Source of the DNA: Enhydrobacter aerosaccus
GTDB taxonomy: Bacteria > Pseudomonadota > Alphaproteobacteria > Reyranellales > Reyranellaceae
DNA length: 64,000 bases
Reading direction: 5' to 3'
Assembly: GCF_900167455.1 (NCBI RefSeq)
Contig: NZ_FUWJ01000001.1
Coordinates: 62,001 to 126,000 of the forward strand
In this document: positions 36,146 to 43,094 of the stretch, piece after piece
Numbering within the stretch: position 1 is the stretch's first letter
Layout: every line of letters begins with the position of its first letter
The notes under the pieces: generated by a model
Told to the model about the DNA's origin: nothing
Database searches by the model: none
Seen by the model: the letters and a program-made list of their open reading frames with translations, nothing else
Program-made: the position numbers and the translations under genes

Positions 36146-36412
36146 ATGGTGGCTCGGCGTCACAATCAACCCATTGCCGACGACGTCCCTTGGTCAGACT
36201 CGATCACCGCCTACGACGAGGCGCATCTGGTGGTTTACCTTCGCCTGTTGGACGCGACCGCCGACGGCGCAAGCAAGAACGAAATGGCCAAGATCATCCT
36301 TGGCATCGATCCGGCCAAGGAGCCCCAGCGGGCCGAGCGCGTGGTCGACAGCCACCTGCGCCGTGCCCGCTGGATGAGCCGAGTTGGCTACCGTCATCTC
36401 CTGCGTGGCTGA
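36146..36412 (+). CDS. DUF2285 protein, QseM-like antiactivator
   Basis: Protein of 88 residues consisting of one DUF2285 domain (LVVYLRLLDATADGASKNEMAKIILG, then RAERVVDSHLRRARWMSRVGYRHLL). The C-terminal half of the FseA-like protein at 38.2-39.0 kb has the same pattern. In ICEMlSym, QseM binds TraR and FseA and blocks excision and transfer; a small DUF2285 protein divergent from an XRE repressor fits that role. AGGAGGG lies nine bases before the ATG. Confidence 0.78.
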   Translation: MVARRHNQPIADDVPWSDSITAYDEAHLVVYLRLLDATADGASKNEMAKIILGIDPAKEPQRAERVVDSHLRRARWMSRVGYRHLLRG

Positions 36413-36621: not shown

Positions 36622-37347
36622 ATGCACCGGGTCTTCCAGACCTTCATCGACCGGCTGTCGGAAAGCGTCGATCGCGCTGACTTGCAGTCTACCTTGGCCG
36701 ATGCGGCAGCCGCATTCGGCCTACACTGCTTCGCGTACTTGTCCTTGCCGCCTCGGCCGGATGACAAGGCGCTCCTCATATCCACCTATCCAACCCAGTG
36801 GACGACGCACTATCTGCAAAGCCGCTACGAGCGGCTCGATCCCGTGATCCTTCAGGCCCAGCGTGGCACCGACCCGTTTGAATGGGGCTTCGGCGCCGGG
36901 AGCATGACTCTCTCCAAGCGGCAACAGCAGTTCTTTGACGAAGCGGCCCAGTTCGATATCCGCTGCGGCTTCACCATCCCCATTCACGATGGCCGCGGTC
37001 CGGTGGCGGCGATCACCTTCGCCGCCCACGAGCGTCACCCGGTGTTCAGCCGCGGCGTCGAGCGACACGGGGAAGTCCTGCAATTCATGGCGCTCCACTA
37101 CCACGCCCAGGTGCGTCAAAAGTTGTCCGGCGATCGCATCATCGCCGGCGTGGCGCTCTCGCCGCGCGAGTTCGACTGCCTGCGGTGGGCCGCCTTGGGA
37201 AAGTCTGCCGGAGACACCGCAGACATCCTGGGTATCAAGCGCCGCACGACGGTTTTCCACCTCGAGAATGCCAAGCAAAAGCTTGGCGTCCGCACCATCT
37301 CCCAAGCTGTCGCGCGCTACTCGGCCTCGATGCGCACCACGCCCTGA
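36622..37347 (+). CDS. traR: LuxR-family quorum-sensing activator (TraR-like)
   Basis: Acyl-homoserine-lactone-responsive activator of 241 residues. The N-terminal ligand domain (about 15-160) has the conserved W60, Y64, D73, P74 and W88. The C-terminal LuxR HTH (about 176-232) contains LSPREFDCLRWAALGKSAGDTADILGI. It is followed by a lux box and the AHL synthase gene, so it most likely activates traI and fseA when signal accumulates. The 36413-36621 region before it shows no gene or clear lux box. Confidence 0.9.
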   Translation: MHRVFQTFIDRLSESVDRADLQSTLADAAAAFGLHCFAYLSLPPRPDDKALLISTYPTQWTTHYLQSRYERLDPVILQAQRGTDPFEWGFGAGSMTLSKRQQQFFDEAAQFDIRCGFTIPIHDGRGPVAAITFAAHERHPVFSRGVERHGEVLQFMALHYHAQVRQKLSGDRIIAGVALSPREFDCLRWAALGKSAGDTADILGIKRRTTVFHLENAKQKLGVRTISQAVARYSASMRTTP

Positions 37348-37366: not shown

Positions 37367-37388
37367 ACCCTGTTCAGGTATACAGGGT
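37367..37388. promoter_or_regulatory. lux/tra box upstream of traI
   Basis: Inverted repeat with 7-bp perfect arms, ACCCTGT and ACAGGGT, and an 8-base centre. The core CCTGT-N8-ACAGG is the same layout as the Vibrio lux box and tra boxes. It ends 57 bases before the traI ATG, the position expected for a LuxR-type activator site next to a promoter. Confidence 0.78.
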
Positions 37389-37445: not shown

Positions 37446-38078
37446 ATGATGCAGCTCATCAGCCAGGATCACTATGGTGAATTCGTGGAAGAGCTCGCCG
37501 ACATGCACCGCTTGCGCTATCGCGTCTTCAAGCAGCGGCTCGATTGGGACGTCCAAGTCAGTGGCGATCTAGAGGTCGACGACTTCGACGCCTTTCACCC
37601 CATTTACCTCCTCCAACGCGGCCGCGACGGCCGTGTTCAAGGCTGTGTCCGCCTGCTGCCGTCGACCGGTCCCACCATGCTGCGGGACGCGTTCGGTGTT
37701 CTCCTGAACGGCGAATCGCCGCCGGCCAGTCCGAGCATCTGGGAGAGCAGCCGCTTCGCTCTCGATCTGCGCCACGATGCGGCTGCGGCAGTCAGCGGCA
37801 TCGCAAGGGCGACCTTTGAGCTGTTCATCGGCATGGTCGAGTTTGGCCTGGCACGGGGTCTCAGCTCTATCGTCACGGTCACGGACCTCAGAATGGAGCG
37901 CATCCTGCGGCGGGCCAGTTGGCCGCTGAAGCGCATCGGCGTCCCTCACGCAATCGGTACGACCCGAGCCATTGCGGGCTACCTCGAGGTCTCGCGCGAC
38001 GCCCTCGCTCGCCTGCGGCGCGAGGGTGGTCTCGAACAGCCAGTTCTCTGGGCGCCGGTCACGATGGCCACAGCCTAG
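37446..38078 (+). CDS. traI: Acyl-homoserine-lactone synthase (LuxI/TraI family)
   Basis: Makes the AHL signal from S-adenosylmethionine and an acyl carrier protein. All the family's invariant residues can be seen in the 210-residue product: R24, F28, W34, D45, D48, R69, E100 and R103. AGGAGG precedes the ATG. It lies behind the lux box and 108 bases before the fseA-like gene, which matches the traI1-msi172-msi171 operon of ICEMlSym, where TraR-AHL drives the excision activator. Confidence 0.92.
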   Translation: MMQLISQDHYGEFVEELADMHRLRYRVFKQRLDWDVQVSGDLEVDDFDAFHPIYLLQRGRDGRVQGCVRLLPSTGPTMLRDAFGVLLNGESPPASPSIWESSRFALDLRHDAAAAVSGIARATFELFIGMVEFGLARGLSSIVTVTDLRMERILRRASWPLKRIGVPHAIGTTRAIAGYLEVSRDALARLRREGGLEQPVLWAPVTMATA

Positions 38079-38186: not shown

Positions 38187-38997
38187 ATGGTCAGCCGTCC
38201 CCCATCCCAAGACGAACAGCCATGGCGTCGTGCCGACGCCTATGACTACACCGATTTACTGCCGAAGCGCGGCTGGGGATGGGAATTCCTACGCCGGGAT
38301 CCTGAGTATCAGCGCGAATGGGCCGCTCTTGGCCCCGCAGTTTCTGTCGAACAGCGACGGCATTTGACCCTTCTGACTGCCAACCGGCCGCTCGATGATC
38401 TGGCGCCATGGGGCGTGTTTTTTCGCAGATCCACCCGACCACGATGCGACTGCCGCCACGGTGTTCTGGCGGCCCGAGGCATGCCCTCACGTCCTGCCGG
38501 TGACGGCCGTTCCGGCCGTCTCGACGGCTCCGTTCTCGCTTGCCGAACTGCACCATCCTACGGCACTCCTGGTCCTGCCGGATGGAACCCAGCATCTCTT
38601 GGCGCGCGATAGCAGCCGCAGTTTGCAGTTGGCGGTCCGGGGTTCAAGCCTGCTTGAGCCCGTCAGCCTGCGCACTGATGCGATCTTCGATGCGCGACAC
38701 TTGCGGCCTCGGCTCACGGCGCTGGAAGGCCTCAACGCTCTGATCAGCAAGCAGAGCTTGCCCGATCATCTCTTCCCAATCGACCCAAGGTCACGGCGGC
38801 TGCGTCATGTTCTGCAATCCTTGGACGGCTTTCTGGCCGGCGCTACCTATCGCGACATCGCCGTCGCTTTGTTCGGCGAAGCGCGTGTTCTCGCCGACTG
38901 GTCGGACCCTCGGCGCCATCTCTTCGACCAAGTGCGCCGAGCGGTCCGGCGGGGACGCTACCTCATGAACGGCGGGTATCGAAGTTTCCTGATTTGA
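38187..38997 (+). CDS. fseA: FseA-like excision activator made by +1 ribosomal frameshifting
   Basis: Two overlapping frames together encode one protein of about 269 residues. Frame 1 (from ATG 38187, GAGGAG upstream) gives an N-terminal domain with DYTDLLPKRGWGWEFLRRDP and continues to 38612 without the family sequence. The second frame carries FWRPEACPHVLPV and a C-terminal DUF2285 domain ending at 38997. They join at TTTTTTC (38418-38424), where skipping C38424 gives VFF-ADPPDHD. In ICEMlSym, msi172 and msi171 are fused by programmed +1 frameshifting into FseA, activator of rdfS. The order here (traI before, rdfS after) is the same. Confidence 0.82.
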
Positions 38998-39237
38998 CGC
39001 CTCTTGCGTCGTCGGCGCTGCATCGATTCACAGCAAAACACGCCGCCTGAACGGCTGGCTGCTGCCTTCGCTGGATCAGGCGCGGCAACGATGTCTTCGC
39101 CGTCTGAGGCAGCGCTTGGGTGGCGAAAACGTCCCCAAGGGTCTTCGCCAGTCCTAGGCCATCGCTTGCCCGCTCATGCTGCCCACGAAGGAGACGACCT
39201 GCGTCGTCGTCTTCCGACCACTTCGATGAGGGCACGC

Positions 39238-39468
39238 ATGGACGACGATGCCGCCCGAGCTGCCAACGCCAAGAAGGGCAGCCCATTTCTCAATACGGCC
39301 CAGGCTGCGCACTATGTCGGCTTGTCGCCGCGCACGTTCGAGCGCATGCGGCGCACTGGCCGCGGCCCGCGCTTTCGCAAGCACGGCCGCTATGTGCGCT
39401 ACCACATCGTCGACCTCGACGCTTGGTCGGAGGGCCGCGCTCATACCAAGGTCGACGGCGATGCGTAG
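39238..39468 (+). CDS. rdfS: Excisionase / recombination directionality factor, RdfS-like
   Basis: MerR-like winged-helix DNA-binding protein of 76 residues (FLNTAQAAHYVGLSPRTFERMRRTGRGPRFRKHGRYVRYHIVDLDAW, given in family form across residues 17-63). Such proteins turn integrase toward excision. ATG 39238 has GAGGG five bases upstream; ATG 39226 is a weaker choice. The 240-base region between fseA and this gene has no coding sequence and is the expected FseA target; it contains a small inverted repeat GACGAC/GTCGTC at 39193-39208. The stop overlaps the traF start. Confidence 0.8.
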   Translation: MDDDAARAANAKKGSPFLNTAQAAHYVGLSPRTFERMRRTGRGPRFRKHGRYVRYHIVDLDAWSEGRAHTKVDGDA

Positions 39469-39964
39469 GGGGACCGTCCTTCGCGTCGGCGCCCTTGCGG
39501 GGCTCGGTCTGGCCGCGCTCGCTTTTGGCCCCTCGACGCCCCGCTTCGTCTGGAACGCCAGCGCCAGTGCACCGCTTGGTCTTTACCTTGTCGAGCAAAC
39601 GGCGGCCTTGGGCAAAGGGGATCTCGTTCTCGCGTGGGCGCCCGACAGTGCGCGCCGAATGGCCGCCGAGCGCGGCTATCTTCCCGAATCCGTGCCGCTC
39701 ACCAAGCGCATCGTGGCCGTCTCTGGCGACACCGTGTGCGGCCGCCATAGCCTCCTCCTCATCAATGGATGGGTCGCTGCAATCCAGTTGCCAGCTGACC
39801 CGCAAGGCCGTCCGCTGACGCCCTGGACGGGGTGTCGTGTGCTCGGGCCCGGCGAGGTTTTGCTGCTGATGGCGGAGGTCTGGGACTCCTTCGACAGCCG
39901 CTATTTCGGACCGATCCCGACCACTTCGATCTTGGGCAAGCTGGTGCCGATATGGACCCGCTGA
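39461..39964 (+). CDS. traF: Conjugal transfer signal peptidase TraF (S26 family)
   Basis: Membrane-anchored serine peptidase, 167 residues, that matures the conjugative pilin. One N-terminal membrane segment spans about 7-25. The catalytic serine is S36 in SAPLGLY, and the catalytic lysine is K82 in TKRIVAVSGDTV. The C-terminal PIPTTSILGKLVPIW is typical of TraF/LepB relatives. It overlaps the excisionase gene by eight bases and the next gene by 13, so rdfS-traF-slt is one operon. Confidence 0.88.
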   Translation: MRRGTVLRVGALAGLGLAALAFGPSTPRFVWNASASAPLGLYLVEQTAALGKGDLVLAWAPDSARRMAAERGYLPESVPLTKRIVAVSGDTVCGRHSLLLINGWVAAIQLPADPQGRPLTPWTGCRVLGPGEVLLLMAEVWDSFDSRYFGPIPTTSILGKLVPIWTR

Positions 39965-41102: not shown

Positions 41103-43094
41103 ATGAAGCTCCCTGCCATCCATGGCCATGAGTTCGAACCGAAGCTGGGTCGCATCGGCAATCGGGGCGTACGCAGTGCCTTCCTACGTGACGTTGCACA
41201 GGCGGTCGCACGGGCAGGCGGGCGCAGCCATGCCTTGTCGCGCCGAGCCGGCCAGCTCGGCCGGATCGGCCGTGGGGCGGGCGTTGGCCGTGTGCTTGGT
41301 ACACGCGACCGCTACGCCGCCTTCCGCCGGCGTCGCGTCATCGTCAAGACACGCCTGATCAAGCTCGCCGGTCGCGGCACAACTCCGGCCCGCGCGCACC
41401 TGCGCTACCTGCAGCGCGACGGCGTCACGCGCGAGGGCCAGCCCGGCGACCTCTACGATGCTGCCCACGACCGGGCCGACGGCGATGCCTTCCTGGGCCG
41501 CGGCGAGGGTGACCGCCATCAGTTCCGATTCATCGTCTCGGCCGAGGACGCGACCGAATTCGCCGACCTCAAGGATTTCACGCGACGGCTGATGCAGCAG
41601 ATGGAACAGGACCTCGGCTCGAAGCTCGACTGGGTAGCGGTCGACCACTACAACACCGGTCATCCTCACACCCACATCGTCTTGCGCGGGAAGGACGACC
41701 GCGGCCGGGACCTGATCATCGCTCGTGAGTATCTCAGCCATGGCACGCGTGAGCGCGCCGCCGAGATCATCAGCTTGGATCTTGGCCCGCGCAGCGACCG
41801 CGAGATCGAAGCCCGATTGCGGGCTGAGGTCGAGCAGGAGCGGTTCACATCCCTCGATCGCGCTTTGCTCAAGGAGGTGGGAGAGCAGGGGCTCTTGCGA
41901 TCCGGAACGACCGTAGGCGATGCCTTCCAACAGACGCTGCGCGCCGGCCGGCTGCAGAAGCTACGGCATCTGGGCCTGGCGCAGGAGATTGGATCGGGAC
42001 AATGGAAGCTCGCCAGCGATCTGGAGCTGGTCTTGCGGCGGCTTGGAGAGCGGGGCGACATCATCAAGACCCTGCATCATGAGCTTGCCCGCCAGGGGCT
42101 GGCCCGCTCGGTGGCTGACTACATCATCTACGAGCCAGCCGAGGACAATGCTCAGCGACTCGTGGGCCGGGTCGTCGCGCGCGGCCTGTCGAACGAGTTG
42201 AACGACCGACGCTATGTGATCGTCGATGGCGTCGATGGCCGCACCCACTATGTCGATATCGGCCAAGCCGGCGAGGCAGAACCGATTCCGGTCGGCGGTA
42301 TCGTCGCCATCGAGCCCAAGCGGGCGGAGCCTCGCGCGGTCGATCGGACCGTGGCCGAGATCGCAGCAGCACATGATGGCCGCTACAGCGTCGACCTTCA
42401 TCTTCACCACGATCCCACGGCCCGGCAGGCGTTTGCCGAAGCTCATGTGCGCCGGCTTGAGGCGATGCGTCGGGCTGGCGTGGATGTCACCCGCGAGAAG
42501 GATGGCGCTTGGATCATTGCGCCCGAGCACCTCGAGCGCGCTGTAGCTTTCGAGCGCGCGCAGGCTCGGCGGGTGCCGGTAGTCATCGAGACGATGTCGA
42601 CCGTACCGCTGGAGCGCCAGGGCGTCGCCGAGGGCGCGACGTGGCTCGACCGCGAGCTCCTCGTCGATGCGCCGACGATCACCCGAGACGCCGGCTTCGG
42701 ACGCGAGGTGCGCGAGGCGCTTGCCCGCCGCCGGCAATGGTTGATCGAGCAGGAGCTGGCACGCGCCGAGCAAGATCGGGTGATCTATCGCGCCAACCTG
42801 CTGGGCCTGCTACGCCGTCGCGAGCTAGTGCGCGTCGGCGCTCGGCTCTCAAGTGAACTCGAACTTCCTTACGCCGAAGCTCAGCCAGGCGGGCGCATCG
42901 AGGGCACCTATCGCCGCCGGCTGGACCTTGCGAGCGGTCGGTTCGCCCTCATCGACAAGGGGCGGGAATTCACCCTGGTTCCTTGGCGGCCGGTGCTTGA
43001 GCGTCATGTCGGCAAGGAAGTGTCCGGTGTGGCGCATGGTGAGACGATTTCTTGGACCATTGGGCGGCAGCGACGTGCGCTGTCAGTGTCCTAA
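41103..43094 (+). CDS. Conjugative relaxase (VirD2-like, DUF3363), RlxS-like
   Basis: Relaxase of 663 residues that nicks oriT and pilots the strand. The N-terminus EFEPKLGRIGNRG is the family start, which supports ATG 41103 over longer in-frame extensions. The likely nucleophile is Y102 (HLRYLQRDG), and the metal-binding histidines are H182, H187, H189 and H191 (DHYNTGHPHTHIVLRG). The C-terminal two thirds match DUF3363. It is followed by the defence-gene cargo rather than further tra genes. Confidence 0.88.
   Translation: MKLPAIHGHEFEPKLGRIGNRGVRSAFLRDVAQAVARAGGRSHALSRRAGQLGRIGRGAGVGRVLGTRDRYAAFRRRRVIVKTRLIKLAGRGTTPARAHLRYLQRDGVTREGQPGDLYDAAHDRADGDAFLGRGEGDRHQFRFIVSAEDATEFADLKDFTRRLMQQMEQDLGSKLDWVAVDHYNTGHPHTHIVLRGKDDRGRDLIIAREYLSHGTRERAAEIISLDLGPRSDREIEARLRAEVEQERFTSLDRALLKEVGEQGLLRSGTTVGDAFQQTLRAGRLQKLRHLGLAQEIGSGQWKLASDLELVLRRLGERGDIIKTLHHELARQGLARSVADYIIYEPAEDNAQRLVGRVVARGLSNELNDRRYVIVDGVDGRTHYVDIGQAGEAEPIPVGGIVAIEPKRAEPRAVDRTVAEIAAAHDGRYSVDLHLHHDPTARQAFAEAHVRRLEAMRRAGVDVTREKDGAWIIAPEHLERAVAFERAQARRVPVVIETMSTVPLERQGVAEGATWLDRELLVDAPTITRDAGFGREVREALARRRQWLIEQELARAEQDRVIYRANLLGLLRRRELVRVGARLSSELELPYAEAQPGGRIEGTYRRRLDLASGRFALIDKGREFTLVPWRPVLERHVGKEVSGVAHGETISWTIGRQRRALSVS

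Follow-up and report, generated by a model that had tools for sequence, protein, structure and literature searches.

An fseA-like gene in Enhydrobacter aerosaccus is probably decoded by programmed +1 ribosomal frameshifting at UUU-C

Among described systems, the closest parallel to the locus analysed here is fseA (msi172-msi171) of ICEMlSym R7A in Mesorhizobium japonicum, for which PMC10359603 reports a +1 shift; the same source counts 4709 FseA homologues from proteobacteria, of which about 61% occupy two open reading frames (ORFs) and have a +1 site next to a UGGGGG element. It also describes the FseA box as inverted hexamers 16 bp apart, and the tra-boxes of R7A are reported to have their centres 69 bp before traI1 and 67 bp before traI2-msi172-msi171 (PMC5882170). 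More generally, bacterial ribosomes are reported to shift by +1 with particular ease at UUU_Ynn (PMC5009743), and prfB, which encodes release factor 2, carries a Shine-Dalgarno (SD)-like sequence three nucleotides before its slip sequence (PMC12421855). Because the FseA +1 frameshift is already published (PMC10359603), the locus described below is a further member of a known family.

Like msi172-msi171, the fseA-like gene of the window (the whole 64,000-nucleotide stretch that was analysed) encodes its DUF6499 and DUF2285 halves in frames offset by +1, with a WG motif where they join, and its surroundings share with ICEMlSym R7A a tra-box ahead of traI, a pair of FseA-box-like hexamers upstream of rdfS with 16 bp between them, and a gene for a lone-DUF2285 antiactivator. 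It differs from R7A in that the host is probably not a rhizobium, a single traI adjoins fseA, and its function is predicted from sequence. Upstream of fseA, and like all genes considered here on the forward strand, lie genes for an 88-aa QseM-like antiactivator consisting of a lone DUF2285 (36146-36412; PF10074 E 3.6e-10, above its cut-off), a TraR-like LuxR-family quorum-sensing regulator (36622-37347; PF03472 7.9e-28, PF00196 3.1e-12; best NCBIfam model TraR at 110.5, below the cut-off of 250) and a TraI-like acyl-homoserine-lactone synthase (37446-38078; PF00765 1.4e-50; NCBIfam TraI 202.2 bits, below the cut-off of 250). A tra-box-like palindrome, ACCCTGT-N8-ACAGGGT (37367-37388), has its centre 68.5 bp ahead of the traI start codon, ATG 37446. 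Downstream, an FseA-box-like inverted repeat, TGGCGAA-N16-TTCGCCA (39121-39150, hexamers at 39122-39149), precedes the gene for an RdfS-like excisionase/HTH protein (39238-39468; PF12728 3.8e-11; NCBIfam excise 7.7e-4, below cut-off), followed by those for a TraF-like conjugative signal peptidase (39446-39964, the extent of the frame rather than a called start; PF10502 and TIGR02771 3.3e-26, the latter at 91.9 bits below its cut-off of 100.25) and an RlxS relaxase (41106-43094; NCBIfam NF041267 995 bits, cut-off 850). Box-like sequences thus stand at the places expected from R7A.

The genome that holds the window contains five FseA-like loci on contigs C17 (two loci), C11, C4 and C19 (L001-L005, L230-L233), all split in the same +1 direction and each with a QseM-like lone-DUF2285 gene upstream. 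The gene order QseM-TraR-TraI-FseA-RdfS-TraF-transglycosylase-RlxS is common to the window, a second element on another contig of the same genome (L230) and the relatives L006 and L007, and also to L008, whose contig begins within traR. In L009, matches to QseM, TraI and FseA were found, with no TraR or RdfS match in the stretch examined, while in the three remaining loci of the same genome (L231-L233) QseM adjoins FseA with no TraR or TraI match in the stretch examined. The tra-box-like palindrome is exact in the window, L230, L006, L008 and L009 and differs at the last base in L007; the window as a whole holds 11 inverted heptamers with the same spacing. GGCGAA-N16-TTCGCC is present in five of these six close sequences (the window, L230, L006, L007 and L008) and in L009, whose stretch has no rdfS match either, the 258 bases downstream of fseA do not contain it; the pattern occurs once in the window, against 43 inverted hexamer pairs of any sequence with that spacing. 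Neither exact box pattern was found in L231-L233. The traI of L006, which comes from a metagenome bin, matches in two overlapping pieces (L006:4259-4887) and may be broken or misassembled.

The zero-frame ORF of fseA (38187-38612; 141 codons from ATG 38187 to the stop at 38610-38612) is msi172-like and carries PF20109 (DUF6499; E 1.2e-9), its N-terminal motif GWEFLRRD corresponding to the AWEFLRRN-like motif of FseA. One base ahead, the msi171-like half (38425-38997; 190 codons plus stop) carries PF10074 (DUF2285; E 3.9e-20). This bears out the +1 offset between N-terminal and DUF2285 halves proposed in the first-pass annotation of the same DNA, and direct reading of the bases confirmed the six T at 38418-38423 and the C at 38424 where it had placed the join. 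A single +1 step at this site yields an open 269-aa protein with both domains, so the halves do join sensibly as had been claimed; the further claim that C38424 is the base skipped is too specific, as omission of any one base of 38418-38424 gives an identical VFF-ADPPDHD and the skipped base therefore cannot be named from the protein alone. A profile built only from single-frame homologues scored the join at the site at 213.3 and the best join, three codons later, at 213.8 (70 candidate joins, lowest 161.0), which resolves the join to about three codons of the site rather than to an exact base. RovC of Yersinia (PDB 6xz5), which by sequence profile is homologous to FseA across the join, is in contrast a single chain; it activates a type VI secretion system (PMC10359603).

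Comparison of close sequences revealed selection on each side of the join. Codons 1-79 of the zero-frame ORF are common to FseA, and the remaining 62 form a tail without sign of selection, for which neither frame nor length conservation was found among close sequences (62, 62, 53, 84, 77 and 17 codons in L001, L002, L006, L007, L008 and L009, respectively). The copy in the second element (L002, L230) has the same site and offset and is approximately 96% identical to that of the window in both protein halves; differences between the two copies fall on zero-frame third positions in 7 of 10 cases before the site and on +1-frame third positions in 23 of 34 after it, with none from -40 to +90 relative to the first T. 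Over the ten, non-independent, pairs of five close sequences, the zero frame had a synonymous fraction of 0.55 before the site, compared with 0.15 and 0.20 for the other two frames. Within the overlap the +1 frame reached 0.49 (zero 0.18, +2 0.20), and past the overlap 0.67. Upstream of the site these fractions favour the zero frame and downstream the +1 frame, indicating that selection switches frame there even though a further 62 zero-frame codons remain open.

These data bear directly on whether the break is functionless, the product of a decayed gene or of a base-call error, for which one base in a six-T run would suffice. Purifying selection acts in both halves, and the same offset recurs in the second element of the same genome and in the relatives L006, L007, L008 (named Reyranella, 80% identity) and L009. 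A mutation or base-call error as the cause of the split is consequently very unlikely on the sequence comparison, and the first-pass preference for a programmed shift over a mutation stands. Decay does occur elsewhere in the family: broken frames were seen in the surveyed loci L172, L220 and L221, and L083 and L086 have stops in the second half.

PF20109 was also searched for in wider sets of genomes. Positive genomes numbered 21 of 75 in the family of the window, 21 of 76 in its order (a set nearly the same as that of the family), 28 of 386 in its class, 46 of 397 in its phylum and 58 of 199 in the family of a further genome, G610. The resulting survey omits seven listed matches, three from the phylum and four from the G610 family (two of these four in one genome, with scores equal to that of an included match). 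From 229 loci, 221 pairs of halves were obtained, eight first-half matches without a second half being omitted, and removal of 19 duplicates left 202 distinct loci: 159 in +1 offset, 40 in the same frame (39 of them open) and three in another offset, including the visibly broken L220 and L221. That both the offset and its direction are common to 159 of 202 distinct loci also speaks against decay or error. The 157 usable splits are these 159 minus L083 and L086.

The identity of the slip signal was sought in the codons at the join. The motif filter, WGxx[F/C/Y], itself demands a Trp and a T-initial last codon, and 149 of the 157 usable splits pass it; the eight outside were inspected individually. 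Within these limits the last motif codon is TTT in 148 of 149 and TGT in one, followed by C in 134 and T in 15, whereas Phe codons elsewhere in these genes are TTT in 294 of 1066 cases. After thinning of clusters at 70% identity, TTT remained in 73 of 74. The homologue profile places the join at the site within 1 bit of the best-scoring join in 133 of the 148 TTT sites, and the exact tetramer, UUU-C at 38421-38424 in the window, rests on the conservation of TTT-Y at this place. Nine of the 157 usable splits lack TTT at that codon: L142 and L059 have TGT, L025, L026 and L038 have CTA, L027 has CTT, and L073, L143 and L226 have TTT-C one or two codons downstream of the expected codon. The CTA and CTT loci all belong to the genus of the window, and these codons may form a slip site of the CUU type, as in prfB.

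The first-pass annotation had taken the whole heptamer TTTTTTC as the slip site and looked to homologues for conservation of both the T-run and the offset. The offset is kept and the T-run is not, with just three T in 118 of the 148 sites and six in nine, and with five in L007 and three in L009. The codon before UUU-Y varies across the window clade (support 0.96), being CAC, CTG, CTC, TCG, TTT, ATT, ATC or CTT, which identifies the core as UUU-Y rather than the heptamer. The short T-runs also argue against slippage of RNA polymerase, in which mixed mRNAs would supply both frames; the six T of the window would suit such slippage, which we nevertheless regard as extremely improbable.

Alternatively, the halves might be made as separate proteins, the second from a start of its own such as ATG 38395, which lies in the +1 frame before the site. 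The halves of rihF1b/rihF1a of Azorhizobium are stated to be separate proteins (PMC9601964), L002, L006 and L008 each have one start in this region, and 89 of 148 splits have a start codon between the opening of the +1 frame and eight codons past the site. The other 59 have none in that range, however, ATG, GTG and TTG are all absent there from L007 and L009, and no SD-like sequence was seen by eye before 38395. Independent starts would moreover leave the fixed UUU-Y unexplained, and we consider them distinctly unlikely.

A programmed +1 ribosomal frameshift, as the first-pass annotation had proposed, is the best reading of the offset and of the near-invariant TTT-Y. We posit that the gene is very probably the fseA of an ICE-type conjugative element, whose rdfS-, traF- and rlxS-like genes were examined here, and that it is decoded by such a shift. 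Ribosomes starting at 38187 would reach UGG-GGC-GUG-UUU-UUU-C, where the upstream GGGG could pair weakly with the 16S rRNA tail and so may assist the shift. With UUU (38421-38423) in the P site, tRNA-Phe, whose anticodon is GAA, would advance by one base to pair with UUC. The observed conservation fits such re-pairing from UUU to UUY, so that this part of the first-pass proposal holds for the tetramer. After the slip, translation would continue in the DUF2285 frame to give the 269-aa FseA, and ribosomes that do not shift would stop at 38612 and release a 141-aa product with DUF6499 only. FseA would then be expected to activate rdfS through the putative box at 39121-39150, leading to excision and transfer.

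Sequence features upstream of UUU-Y suggest further components of the signal. The family consensus is UGG-GGG-UUG-CGA-UUU-Y, with GGG at the Gly codon in 100 of 148 sites (295 of 2279 elsewhere), TTG at the Leu codon in 74 of 126 (496 of 4279 elsewhere) and CGA in 72 of the 81 cases with Arg directly before TTT (434 of 4306 elsewhere); the related genes in these counts are not independent of one another. Relative to this family consensus, the window has GGGGC for GGGGG and UUU for CGA before the slip codon and is accordingly the weaker site, lacking both the fifth G and the CGA. Its SD-like GGGG (38410-38413) lies 8-11 nt before the slip codon as part of the Trp-Gly codons, and as these codons are required by the filter and dictate GGGG, only the fifth G, absent in the window, counts as evidence. 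Predicted pairing with the anti-SD across the family is strongest in 8-mers whose first base lies 11-14 nt upstream of TTT (means -6.9 to -7.7 kcal/mol, versus -0.65 at other positions), a signal that in part follows from the Trp-Gly codons demanded by the filter; the best duplex of the window (UGGGGC, -5.9 kcal/mol) is weaker than the family mean. The window shares with prfB an SD-like G-run upstream, a pyrimidine slip tetramer and the +1 direction, and differs in that the next zero-frame codon after the slip codon is CGC, with no stop in the A site to cause a pause, in slipping at UUU rather than CUU, in a G-run farther from the slip codon and in having no known autoregulation.

The consensus raises the possibility that the translational shift takes place at the codon preceding UUU: while that codon occupies the P site, tRNA-Phe would read UUC instead of UUU in the A site, without re-pairing, as in the Ty3-type +1 step. 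The strong preference for CGA at that codon would suit this scheme, as would the spacing of G-run and CGA in the consensus, which equals that of G-run and CUU in prfB and makes the scheme a live, if minor, rival. Such a shift would not need the first U of UUU, yet this base is kept in 150 of 157 usable splits, and the preceding codon is free in the window clade. Re-pairing on UUU remains the favoured reading, with the signal narrowed to the tetramer, which in much of the family is probably assisted by the upstream G-run and CGA.

The fifth upstream G and the CGA before UUU-Y together define a sharper signal that is perhaps new: no statement of the CGA and UUU-Y detail was found in the passages of literature searched. 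We tentatively hypothesise, at a little under even confidence, that +1 shifting in the FseA family relies on a composite signal that dispenses with a stop codon and downstream structure and consists of an SD-like GGGGG, a weakly paired CGA in the E site and UUU-Y, of which the window clade would show the minimal core of UUU-Y behind a Trp-Gly GGGG, and whose features can go when the shift is lost. The single-frame L162, which lies inside a CGA-UUU clade and reads CGG-TTC, is an example of such loss. Split and intact forms have interchanged at least 10 times by parsimony on a tree of 195 proteins. GGG occupies the Gly codon in 6 of 30 intact genes with WG, and as only 10 of the 39 intact loci match the site motif, codon comparison with intact genes is thin. 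The first-pass annotation had named homologues with a single intact frame as evidence against programming; intact genes do exist (39 of 202), yet all 15 members of the window clade are split with UUU-Y, and the closest intact genes, L071 and L063, fall just outside it with weak support. L012, a single-frame gene among split relatives, still has TTT then C at the old site, which counts against a strict link between the signal and the split.

Over 38424-38520, in the window only, no downstream stimulatory structure beyond chance was found (z 0.21). The longest invariant stretch in five close fseA sequences (18 nt, 38454-38471, lying 30-47 nt past the site) could fold into a short hairpin and also encodes a conserved peptide stretch. 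A terminator-like hairpin at 38403-38416 is followed by the T-run, and such sites numbered three against 1.6 expected; by eye, L008 preserves both its stem letters and the T-run, L009 preserves the stem letters but not the T-run, and the stem is changed in L006 and L007. Attenuation at this hairpin was considered and is thought unlikely in view of the changed stems and the absent T-run.

Taken at the level of sequence, the locus supports an extension of the published translational control of DNA transfer to elements probably outside rhizobia, in a genome whose five FseA-like genes are all split in a way that calls for frameshifting, and it offers direct predictions for +1 shifting at UUU-Y without a stop codon. 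Similar sites were seen among plasmid records, of which eight of 23 with a match were looked at. TTT-C is present in Mesorhizobium (L234, L235 and L236, the last with an unrecognisable first half upstream) and in Sinorhizobium medicae (L239), the Skermanella gene L241 is single-frame, and L237 and L238 had no WG within the scanned range. A complete Azospirillum lipoferum plasmid (L240) carries TGT-C at L240:1949-1975. TGT-C therefore occurs at the join in three loci (L142, L059 and L240), where a shift is not explained by simple re-pairing. The annotation of L234, L239 and L240 gives each half as a protein of its own, so that automatic annotation is again seen to split such genes.
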